A stretch of DNA of 64,000 nucleotides, taken from NCBI RefSeq assembly GCF_013409345.1, contig NZ_JACCBB010000001.1:1364001-1428000 (forward strand), written 5' to 3'. This document shows, in pieces, positions 3,525 to 52,273 of this stretch; the stretch's first letter is position 1, and every line of letters starts with the position of its first letter. The notes below the pieces were generated by a model, which worked only from the letters and a program-made list of their open reading frames with translations, was not told the origin of the DNA and did not search any database. Origin of the DNA: Kineococcus aurantiacus. GTDB taxonomy: Bacteria > Actinomycetota > Actinomycetes > Actinomycetales > Kineococcaceae. The translations under genes and the position numbers were made by a program.

Positions 3525-4556
3525 GTGCCGGGACGCGGGACGACCGCCGGCTCAGGCCGCTACCCGGGCCTGCGGGACGTCGCACGAGTCGCCGGCGTTT
3601 CCCACCAGACGGTCTCGCGGGTGCTGAACGACCTGCCCGACGTCGCTCCCGCCACGCGGTCGAAGGTGCTGGCCGCCGTCGAGGAGCTGGGGTACCGGCG
3701 CAACCTGACGGCACGGAACCTGGCGACGAACCGGTCCGGGACCCTGGGCATCGTCACCGACGCCTCCCCGCGCCTCGGTCCGGTCAACACGCTGATGGCG
3801 CTGGAGACGGCGGCGCGGACCCGGGGGCTCACCTGCGCCGTGGTGACGATCGGTGAGCCCTACGCCACGTCCGTCCCCGCCGCTCTGCGCGGCCTGGAGG
3901 AGATGGGGGTGCACGGCATCGTCGCCATCGCCCCGCTGGCCGCCGCGGCGGCGACGGTGCGCGCCTACCGCGCCCGGGTGCCGCTGGTCCTGATCGCCGC
4001 CGGGGAGGCCTCCACGCCCGGCGCGCCGGCTCTGGGCGAGAACCAGGAACTGGGCGCCCGGATGGCGACGCAGCACCTGATCCGATTGGGGCACAAGGAC
4101 GTCGTGCACATCGCGGGGTCGCTGGACTGGCTGGACGGGCGCGTCCGCCACCGCGGCTGGGCGGCGGAGATGGCCGAGGCCGGGCTGGCCGGCCACCGCT
4201 GGTTCGAGAGCGACTGGAGCCCCGCCTACGCCTACGACCTGGGGCGCACCCTGCTCGAGGAGGGGCTGCCCACCGCCGTCTTCGCCGCCAGCGACCACAT
4301 GGCGCTGGGACTGCTGCGGGTGTTCGCCGAGAACGGCGTGCGGGTCCCCGAGGACGTGAGCGTCATCGGGTACGACGACGTCGAGGGCTCGGACTTCTTC
4401 TTCCCGCCGCTGACCACCGTGCGCCAGGACTTCGCGGAACTGGCGCGCGACGCCCTCAGCCTGCTGGAGGACCCCGCGAGCGCCGAGCTGCGCGAGGAGC
4501 CCCCGAAGGCTCCCAGCCTCGTGGTCCGCAGCAGCACCGCGCCTCCGCGCGCCTGA
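3525..4556 (+). CDS. LacI-family transcriptional regulator of the adjacent sugar operon
   Basis: A 343-residue LacI/GalR repressor. The helix-turn-helix is at residues 15-40 (LRDVARVAGVSHQTVSRVLN), with the hinge near NLTARNLATNRSGTLG. The effector domain follows, with SDHMALGLLRVFAENGVRVPEDVSVIGYDDVEG in the usual place. The start is a GTG; about 15 residues precede the HTH. It lies just upstream of, and co-directional with, the ABC importer operon. The operator-like TGTTACCGGTCACG at 4672-4685 is its most likely target. The inducer is probably the sugar carried by that importer. Confidence 0.92.
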   Translation: MPGRGTTAGSGRYPGLRDVARVAGVSHQTVSRVLNDLPDVAPATRSKVLAAVEELGYRRNLTARNLATNRSGTLGIVTDASPRLGPVNTLMALETAARTRGLTCAVVTIGEPYATSVPAALRGLEEMGVHGIVAIAPLAAAAATVRAYRARVPLVLIAAGEASTPGAPALGENQELGARMATQHLIRLGHKDVVHIAGSLDWLDGRVRHRGWAAEMAEAGLAGHRWFESDWSPAYAYDLGRTLLEEGLPTAVFAASDHMALGLLRVFAENGVRVPEDVSVIGYDDVEGSDFFFPPLTTVRQDFAELARDALSLLEDPASAELREEPPKAPSLVVRSSTAPPRA

Positions 4557-4862
4557 CCCTCCTCCCCCGCTCGACCCGGTCCACCGGCGTGCGCCCGCTC
4601 CCGCCCGGCGGGGCGTGACGGCACCCCCAACCTCTCGATGTGACGTGCGTCACCCTGCTTGACACTGCCACTGTTACCGGTCACGGTAGGCGTCACACCG
4701 ACCGACGACCGGTCCCGGGGGCGCTACGACGAGCCCCCGGCACCCTCCGGGCGACCGCCAGCCGCCCGACCCGTCGACGGGCACGACCACCCCCACGAAC
4801 CACCGGGTACCCGCGCTCGCACCACCGCCCGAGCACCCGGCACGACACGAGGAGACGAGCCC
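4557..4862. other. 306-base promoter and leader region of the sugar ABC operon
   Basis: No gene is supported. It contains GTGACG-TG-CGTCAC (4640-4653), TTGACA (4659-4664) and the LacI-type operator (4672-4685), then about 170 bases of untranslated leader. The leader ends in an AGGAGA-like ribosome site before the ATG at 4863. Confidence 0.55.
4659..4685 (+). promoter_or_regulatory. -35 element with LacI-type operator in the spacer
   Basis: A consensus TTGACA (4659-4664) is followed by TGTTACCGGTCACG (4672-4685). The latter contains GTnACCGGTnAC, the symmetric central-CG layout of LacI-family sites, and sits where the spacer and -10 should be. A bound repressor would block polymerase. The -10 itself is poor. 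A second inverted repeat, GTGACG-TG-CGTCAC (4640-4653), lies just upstream. Confidence 0.55.
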
Positions 4863-50500: not shown

Positions 50501-50536
50501 GCGCAGGCCCGGCGGGGTTCCCCGCCGGGCCTGCGC
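50501..50536. terminator. 17-base-pair terminator between argG and the hydrolase
   Basis: GCGCAGGCCCGGCGGGG (50501-50517) and CCCCGCCGGGCCTGCGC (50520-50536) pair perfectly around TT, between two convergent stops. Confidence 0.85.
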
Positions 50537-50565: not shown

Positions 50566-51474
50566 TCAGTACGGGCAGTTGCTGCGGTACTCGCTGATGG
50601 TCGTGGTGATCGACGGCGCCGGGCACAGGAACTGGCTGTACCGGGTGTCGTCGTCCACGAACCGCTTGAGCCAGGAGATGCTGTACGAGGCGATGGTGGT
50701 GTTGGACGAGTTCGGGGCGAAGTGGCTCGCGCCGCGCAGTTCCAGGTACGCCTTCTCGGTCGTCGAGGGCAGCGACTGGTAGAACGGCTCCGAGTGCGAG
50801 GTCACCGGGGCGACGGTGTCGTCCTGCGCCCCCACGATGAACGTCGGGGTGGTGATCTCCGGCCACGTCTTGTCGAGGTTCCACGGGGTCAGGCCGATCG
50901 CCGCGCGCAGCGACGGGCGGTCCTTGGCGGCCTCCAGGGTGCCGCCGCCACCCATCGAGTGACCCACCACCGCGATCCGGCTCGCGTCGACCCGGCTGCG
51001 GACGCTGCTGCTGCCGGTGAGGTAGTCGGCGGCCGCGAGCAGCTCGTCGCCGCGGGTGGCCGGCTGGTCGTAGCGGCTCAGGGTGTCGATGGTGAACACC
51101 ACGAAACCCTGGGACGCCAGCCGCGGCCCCAGCCAGGCGATGCTGGACTGGGTGGCCGTGTAGCCGGGGGCGATGACGACCCCGCCGAACGTGCCGGCCG
51201 TCGTGGAGGTCGGGTAGTAGATCGTGCCGCCGCCGAAACCCCGGGCCGAGAAGCTCGAGACGGTGGTCTGCGCCGTGGCGAACGAGCCGCGGGTGGCCTG
51301 GATGCTGGACGTCGTGGGCGCCGGGCCGCGCTCGTAGGGGTTGTCCGCGGCCTGCGCGGGCTGCGCGGCGAGCAGCGGCAGGGTCAGGGCGAACGTGGTC
51401 GCGGCGAGCGAGGCACGCACGCGGCGGGTGCCGCGGCGCGGGGTGCGGTCGCTGGTGGGGGTGGTGCGCGGCAT
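50566..51474 (-). CDS. Secreted cutinase/polyester hydrolase (PET-hydrolase family)
   Basis: A 302-residue secreted alpha/beta hydrolase closely resembling the Thermobifida cutinases that degrade PET. After a Sec-type signal peptide (cleavage near AQA-AD, residue 42) comes [10 protein letters not shown], as in those enzymes. Catalytic Ser173 is in GHSMGGGG, Asp219 in AQDDTVAP and His251 in ASHFAPN. Oxyanion Tyr105 (PGYT) and Met174, the substrate-stacking Trp198 (LTPWNL) and the disulfide Cys284-Cys300 are all present. It cleaves esters of cutin-like or synthetic polyesters; activity on PET is untested. ATG at 51474 follows AGAGGAAA. Divergent from a TetR gene. Confidence 0.93.
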
Positions 51475-51589
51475 CGGGGTTTCCTCTCGGGGACCGACGG
51501 GGGGTACGGGCCCGCGCGGACGGAGCCGCCGGGGACGCGACGTCGTGACCCCGAGCACCTCCACCGGGCCGGCCGGGCTCACGCTAACT

Positions 51590-51613
51590 TTGCCTCACCA
51601 CGTGGTCAAGCAA
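51590..51613. promoter_or_regulatory. 24-base TetR-type operator of the polyester hydrolase
   Basis: The site equals its own reverse complement at 20 of 24 positions, with a perfect core ACCACGTGGT (51597-51606) and outer TTGC/GCAA arms. It lies in the 187-base divergent gap, 116 bases upstream of the hydrolase and 49 upstream of the TetR start. Confidence 0.7.
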
Positions 51614-51661
51614 GTCCTGCGCGCCGCCCGGCGACCTCCCCGCCGCGGCTACCCTTCCCCC

Positions 51662-52273
51662 GTGCCACCCCCCGCAGACGACGGCCCGCCGGCCGAGGAC
51701 GGCCGCCGGCTGCGCTACCGGCACCGCCGCGAGGAACTCCTGCAGGCGGCCACCGAGCACGTCGTCGAGCAGGGCCTGGCCCACGCCTCGCTGCGCCGCG
51801 TCGCCGAGGGGGTCGGCGTCAGCCACGCCGCGCTGCTGCACCACTTCGGCTCCCGCGAGGGGCTGCTCGCCGAGATCGTCGAGCGCGTCCTGACCCGCGC
51901 CTTCAGCGCCCCGGGCCTGCACGAGGGCGACCCCGAGGGCGGGCCGCTGCGGGCGCTGTGGCACCACGCCACCGCCGAGCCGGGCGAGCGCCACGTCCGG
52001 CTGTTCCTGGCCATCACCGGCCAGGCGCTCTACGACGACGGCCTCGCCGCGACGGTGCGGCGGTCCGTGCGCGAGCGCAGCGACCTCGTCGCCGCCGGGT
52101 TCGCGGCCGCCGGCGCGGACCCCGCGACGGCCCGGTCGCTGGGCACCCTCGTCCTGTCGACCATGCGCGGGCTGCTGCTGGACCGCCTGGTCACCGGCGA
52201 CACCGCCCGCGTCGACGCCGCGTTCGAGGGGTTCGTGCGCGGCCTGGAGGCGGCGTACCCGCGCCGCCCCTGA
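51662..52273 (+). CDS. TetR-family regulator, probable polyester-hydrolase regulator
   Basis: A 203-residue repressor. The HTH is at about residues 20-65 (RREELLQAATEHVVEQGLAH, GVSHAALLHHFGSREGLLAE). The helical ligand domain (HVRLFLAITGQALYDDGLAA, GTLVLSTMRGLLLDRLVTGD) follows. GTG at 51662 is preceded by a proline-rich codon run. It is divergent from the secreted hydrolase and separated from it by a long palindrome, so local control is likely. The ligand may be a fatty or hydroxy acid released from polyester. Confidence 0.9.
   Translation: MPPPADDGPPAEDGRRLRYRHRREELLQAATEHVVEQGLAHASLRRVAEGVGVSHAALLHHFGSREGLLAEIVERVLTRAFSAPGLHEGDPEGGPLRALWHHATAEPGERHVRLFLAITGQALYDDGLAATVRRSVRERSDLVAAGFAAAGADPATARSLGTLVLSTMRGLLLDRLVTGDTARVDAAFEGFVRGLEAAYPRRP

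Follow-up and report, generated by a model that had tools for sequence, protein, structure and literature searches.

The PETase-type cutinase gene in the 64,000-nucleotide stretch of Kineococcus aurantiacus DNA analysed here (the window) probably has a dedicated local repressor, a TetR-family protein that, judging from sequence comparison, would sit as a dimer on a 24-base operator at the cutinase promoter and be released by a small molecule. The regulator is encoded divergently from the cutinase across an intergenic gap of 187 bp, and the predicted operator lies in that gap. Comparison across genomes brings out the gene pair, the putative operator and its overlap with promoter-like sequence, and ties the operator to genomes that have the TetR. 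This comparison, which includes divergent pairs, the operator itself and a species in which the two genes lie in trans, strongly supports the control of the cutinase by a local TetR and operator that an earlier note on this DNA had proposed.

The cutinase and its divergent regulator

The cutinase gene (50566..51474, minus strand) encodes 302 residues with a catalytic S173-D219-H251. The protein matches the Pfam model PF12740 "PETase" with 401.6 bits (cut-off 28) over residues 41-301, and it is the sole full-length match to this model in its genome (5.03 Mb, two contigs), the second match being partial at 31.8 bits. It reaches 519.2 bits with NF051441, the bis(hydroxyethyl) terephthalate hydrolase equivalog, and the cut-off there is 520; being 0.8 bits short, it is not filed under that model. 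The three catalytic residues, Y105, M174, W198 and the cysteines 284 and 300 are found where the earlier note had placed them. Across 24 aligned homologues S173, M174, D219, H251, C284 and C300 are invariant and W198 almost so. The mature enzyme can be read from the sequence as starting at NPYERGP, also as proposed. Residues 1-43, before DNPYERGP (51346..51474, minus strand), are likely the export signal: read by eye, the N-terminus is basic, continues with a hydrophobic stretch and ends in AQA-A, and the AF2 model has a pLDDT below 50 at residues 9-39.

The best solved relatives of the cutinase are PET40 and the Streptomyces exfoliatus lipase (1JFR). The AF2 model superposes on PET40 (8a2c) with an rmsd of 0.8 at 75% identity, and on the Thermobifida cutinases at 57-61% identity. 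Over the actinobacterial PET hydrolases compared (PET40, 1JFR, Cut190, Thermobifida cutinases, PHL7 and S. flava 611) the rmsd is 0.8-1.4 and the identity 57-75%, and all have the same fold, triad and C-terminal cysteines as the window cutinase. Structure model and identities together uphold the suggested kinship to proven PET hydrolases, and hydrolysis of polyester or PET by the window enzyme is plausible by homology. The flanking genes examined encode argininosuccinate synthase, an F420_oxidored-domain protein and a tRNA-editing-domain protein, among which a link to polyesters is not evident. Between the argininosuccinate synthase gene and the converging cutinase gene lies a GC-rich palindrome with 22 of 24 matching bases (50507-50530), possibly a shared terminator; it is not among the terminators reported by the terminator scan.

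The divergent neighbour (51662..52273, plus strand; 203 residues from a GTG start at 51662) is indeed a TetR-family regulator, with 42.2 bits for PF00440 (cut-off 24) and an all-helical TetR fold in its AF2 model (pLDDT 85). Scores for the C-terminal domain fall below cut-off with both PF17940 (26.6 against 27.4) and PF21993 (21.6 against 27). The structures closest to the model are uncharacterised Rhodococcus regulators, EilR and FasR, all at about 20-25% identity; 2g3b, for example, aligns over 178 residues with Z 16.1 and rmsd 3.4. FasR of M. tuberculosis is the top Foldseek match by E-value (2.1e-05), roughly equalled by 2np5, 2g3b and EilR, and these nearest solved relatives have no ligand class in common. 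A putative recognition helix, GVSHA(A/T)L(L/V)HHF, is common to the cutinase-linked TetRs and to sister TetRs, with few changes.

When related genomes are searched, as the earlier note had suggested, the cutinase, the TetR and the palindrome block recur together. Both genes are present at 26 of the 39 loci examined, divergent in every case, while 12 of the remaining 13 loci have the TetR only and one has no TetR match. These loci are the window, G005, G008, G059 and 35 more from a species scan, in which the TetR alignment was set against 84,980 species, each represented by a single genome; that scan works by two short peptide patterns and so covers close relatives only. The pairs come from Kineococcus, Kineosporia, Rhodococcus, Clavibacter, Promicromonospora, Saccharopolyspora, Sciscionella, Nocardioides and Brachybacterium, with further pairs in G059, from one more genus, and in a MAG. 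The 24 scan loci L064-L087, with TetR identities of 43-71% across >150 residues, include 22 pairs, the two exceptions being L065, at a contig end, and L082, from K. xinjiangensis; the cutinase is absent from the other 11 loci of the scan. Five scan loci (L064, L065, L070, L082 and L087) correspond to G010, G003, G009, G011 and G098, and each is counted once. The 26 pairs contain near-copies, such as L069 and L085, both Promicromonospora iranensis, and the degenerate Clavibacter L067. At this last locus (Clavibacter sp. VKM Ac-2873) the pair lacks the operator region, the start of the TetR and a portion of the cutinase N-terminus, and the same genome carries a second pair, L072.

The cutinase is found at E <1e-60 in 18 of the 99 genomes searched, its own included, and a TetR orthologue lies beside it in seven (G000, G005, G008, which we take to be K. 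radiotolerans, G009, G010, G059 and G098). G003 is counted as adjacent solely because its cutinase and TetR are at contig ends, in G011 the two genes are apart, and in the other nine no TetR is seen beside the cutinase (in G004 the contig stops there). Within the window's genus, six of 11 genomes have both genes, four have neither and one, G004, has the cutinase only, at a contig end of an assembly of about 1060 contigs and without a TetR orthologue. A phylum sample of 396 genomes contains nine with the cutinase (E <=1e-60) and three with the TetR (E <=1e-20), and the window's own genome alone has both. PETase-type cutinases do not all have the TetR.

In a tree of 33 TetRs one branch, with support 100/99, separates the 26 cutinase-linked rows, among them K. 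vitellinus and K. xinjiangensis, from all others, and a branch at 100/99 does so again in a later tree of 35 rows to which L138 and L139 were added. The trees leave out L067, L086, L091, L095, L097 and L098, and the long branches of L084, L088, L138 and L139 make their positions unsure. The TetR of L138 (G265) is 46% identical over 174 residues and comes from a genome without the cutinase and a locus without such an operator; TetR identity is no clean border of the cutinase-linked group. A mirror test for co-evolution, correlating TetR with cutinase identities, was dropped as support because the correlation is weak (Spearman 0.24 over 24 loci).

A predicted operator that follows the TetR

The earlier note had singled out a palindrome at 51590-51613, and its count of 20 matching bases in 24 is correct. 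Of 1000 first-order resamplings of this gap of 187 bp, 44 also contain a palindrome of at least 20/24, as do 21 of 342 window tiles, so the count is insufficient for an operator claim, and the palindrome score by itself, equalled in 4-6% of gaps and tiles, was rejected as proof. It is conservation that sets this palindrome apart from chance. With a matrix derived from 20 sites in other genomes the window site scores 29.9 bits, the reverse complement of that site 24.3, and the best unrelated 24-mer of the 64-kb window 7.0. The gap has another palindrome of 20/24, CGGGGTCACGACGTCGCGTCCCCG, within the cutinase leader around 51541-51564, whose only counterpart among seven intergenic regions is in G005, the nearest relative.

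Around TTGACC the intergenic regions contain a conserved block, from -4 to +19, that in the window corresponds to 51590-51613, the same 24 bases as in the earlier note; this is the predicted operator (TTGCTTGACCACGTGGTGAGGCAA on the minus strand), called from the block and the matrix score. The conservation profile was made from 25 sites, 21 after removal of near-copies, with Clavibacter L067 left out. In the 21 sites all positions from -4 to +19 apart from the central two have a high information content; it is far lower outside, with a second, smaller peak at the cutinase -10. The most frequent bases spell TTGCTTGACCA-nn-TGGTAGAGCTA. Every one of the 21 non-redundant sites has ACC and GGT, an invariance that weighs less than the flanks and the controls because sites were chosen by likeness to the core. 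Part of the conservation of the left arm is due to the conserved -35. Arm symmetry is lower elsewhere, with 12-18 of 24 bases matching in the remaining 20 non-redundant sites; compensatory changes from one arm to the other were considered and rejected, since the complementarity equals the expectation from column make-up.

Scored over 11 core positions, 13 of the 26 pairs reach 11, eight reach 10, four reach 9 and one reaches 8, compared with a mean of 6.8 for resampled gaps. The observed score is reached by at least one of 300 resampled gaps in seven pairs, most often at the Brachybacterium site L084 (12 of 300), which is diverged, does not outscore the controls and has no recognisable -10. 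L067 is among the scores of 9, yet the operator region is deleted there and the match is not a real operator. No second copy of the 20-base core TTGACCAnnTGGT with up to three mismatches occurs in the 5.03-Mb window genome. A looser operator pattern has three matches in this genome against five for a reversed control; one extra match falls within a long open frame and is found again, letter for letter, in the TetR-less genomes G001 and G007, so it has no tie to the TetR.

The predicted operator overlaps promoter-like sequence of the cutinase. A putative -35, TTGACC (51604..51609, minus strand), lies within it, recognised by its spacing to TANNNT, and a putative -10, TAGCGT (51581..51586, minus strand), follows after a spacer of 17, marked by this spacing and by the small conservation peak, and matches at only three of six positions. 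With spacers of 15-19 allowed, TANNNT is found 17-18 bases after TTGACC or its local variant in 24 of the 26 pairs. A bound dimer would thus cover the cutinase -35 and most of the spacer. Under its strict rule, a sigma-70 scan finds neither promoter nor terminator at the locus. On the side of the regulator, TANNN(T/C) stands 4-9 bases before the GTG or ATG start in 21 of the 26 pairs, and this conservation marks a putative tetR -10 in the window, TACCCT (51650..51655, plus strand), six bases before the GTG. The tetR transcript is probably leaderless.

Does the block belong to the cutinase or to the regulator? A control scan covered 20 cutinase loci without an adjacent TetR, on the cutinase strand and over up to 450 upstream bases. 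At all 18 loci (15 genomes) that have no TetR orthologue and a visible upstream region the operator is absent, with best core scores of 6-8. The other two loci of the scan are L009, with only 85 bases visible, and K. xinjiangensis, with a core score of 10. In K. xinjiangensis (G011; L012, L040/L082) the two genes are on different contigs and far from the ends: a contig of 154 kb has tetR at 75.7 kb, and one of 124 kb has the cutinase at 48 kb. The pattern TTGACCNNNNGGTNNNNCNA has only two matches in this genome, one upstream of each gene. Sister TetRs without a cutinase, at five Micromonospora loci, have the same operator at 20-24 of 24, one site being the perfect palindrome TAGCTTGACCACGTGGTCAAGCTA.

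The Micromonospora palindromes (L089, L091, L093, L094 and L095) precede the TetR match by about 50 bases, and the gene divergent from the sister TetR encodes a Glyoxalase_3 protein where this was checked (L089, L091 and L093). Another sister TetR, at L088 (Actinomycetes MAG P_S1_bin.2, 3721-4854), adjoins a PF03583 secretory-lipase-like gene, and the gap there contains a related dyad, TATACCGATTGGTATA.

The proposed switch and its alternatives

We propose that a TetR dimer binds the predicted operator at 51590-51613, with its core TTGACCAnnTGGT, and in doing so covers the cutinase -35 and much of the spacer, which would keep RNA polymerase off. A small molecule entering the C-terminal pocket would then make the TetR let go, and the secreted cutinase would be made. 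We infer binding by the TetR, repression over activation, and release by a ligand. Control of a divergent enzyme gene by a TetR repressor is an established type of system, and the window has the layout of a local repressor, its target divergent and 187 bp away. In the available text of PMC3511530, all five Streptomyces TetR regulators tested that have a divergent gene less than 200 bp away acted as its repressors. Given this precedent and the 187-bp gap, repression is the likely direction and activation a minority reading.

What might the TetR sense? An ester-hydrolysis product, such as a hydroxy acid or a fatty acid, is our guess for the inducer, a tentative one that we would place a little below an even chance. 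The wider proposal, that this TetR clade is the native sensor of PET-hydrolase-type cutinases in at least nine actinobacterial genera, with a polyester-hydrolysis product (a cutin hydroxy acid or a PET fragment) as inducer, is put forward with the same reserve. That the TetR answers some other signal, be it a general lipid, an acyl-CoA, a stress or a drug-like molecule, stands at about even. Sister TetRs with the operator adjoin Glyoxalase_3 genes (L089, L091, L092 and L093), another sister, at L088, adjoins the PF03583 secretory lipase, and the lack of a common ligand class among the nearest solved relatives points the same way. Against another signal stands the uniqueness of the operator core in the genome: the regulator seems dedicated to the cutinase, which favours a signal tied to the cutinase substrate.

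It is unlikely that the TetR activates the cutinase, or that it mainly represses its own gene with the cutinase as a secondary target. Activation could be read from the top Foldseek match, FasR, which NCBIfam names an activator; that match is about as good as those to 2np5, 2g3b and EilR. Self-repression would suit the lone tetR of K. xinjiangensis, which keeps the operator while the cutinase is elsewhere. An operator that covers the cutinase -35 and spacer fits repression of the cutinase, however, and in the window it is upstream of the likely tetR -10. This position, upstream of an apparent leaderless tetR promoter, makes autoregulation less clear.

Less probable still is a block that is merely a conserved cutinase promoter beside an unrelated, inherited TetR. 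TTGACC and TANNNT do look like a promoter, but the block is absent from all 18 TetR-less cutinases with upstream sequence visible, stands before the lone tetR of K. xinjiangensis and is kept by sister TetRs that have no cutinase, and its right arm has an invariant GGT that does not belong to a promoter. The idea of a chance palindrome in GC-rich DNA, for which the 44 resampled gaps and 21 tiles speak, is negligible given that the palindrome coincides with the cross-species block and scores 29.9 against 7.0 bits.

Related regulators and what the pair means for PET hydrolases

The E. coli RutR operator, which we take to be TTGACCAnnTGGTCAA, resembles the core of the window site, and the window TetR has similarity to RutR in its HTH. 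The RutR operator is a palindrome of about 16 bp, according to the available text of PMC10891134. Against the RutR model the window TetR scores 26.3 bits where the cut-off is 368, and no pyrimidine genes are present among its neighbours examined. FasR of mycobacteria, solved with C20-CoA, has the TetR fold in common with the window protein, and at 22% identity and 28.4 bits (cut-off 330) the likeness is one of shared fold only. TetR/tetA and the divergent TetR regulators of enzyme genes, as described in the available text of PMC3511530, are likewise divergent within less than 200 bp and have a palindromic operator in the gap. Unlike the TetR/tetA type, the window module has a single operator, over the target promoter, and its target is a secreted polyester hydrolase. 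No TetR regulator or repressor-operator of a PETase-type cutinase came up in the literature searches, which covered open-licence papers, including the available portions of PMC11239401, PMC9039725, PMC3511530 and PMC9736018.

One of the pairs contains an enzyme of demonstrated activity. In Saccharopolyspora flava (L078) the cutinase is divergent from a TetR with an operator core of 9 of 11 between them, and this cutinase is identical to PDB 7QJP over 260 aligned residues. 7QJP is enzyme 611 of a PET hydrolase survey, which, in the available text of PMC9772341, is active on PET, with near-optimal activity at pH 6.0 and detectable activity below, and is selective for crystalline PET powder. A cutinase relative from Brachybacterium, BgP, hydrolyses polycaprolactone according to the accessible part of PMC9039725; the Brachybacterium locus in the pair set is from a species other than the BgP source. 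With the activities of 611 and BgP, the putative switch belongs to a gene family of demonstrated polyester activity, shown outside the window strain.

PET hydrolases are heavily engineered, and to our knowledge little is known of how they are naturally switched or of the natural polyester in their hosts. With a probable dedicated regulator and a defined operator of 24 bases, the natural induction of this family becomes testable. The TetR-operator pair offers a way of finding the natural inducer and might serve as a biosensor for the breakdown of polyesters. If the TetR does sense a polyester product, knowing its ligand would show which substrate these enzymes have in nature.
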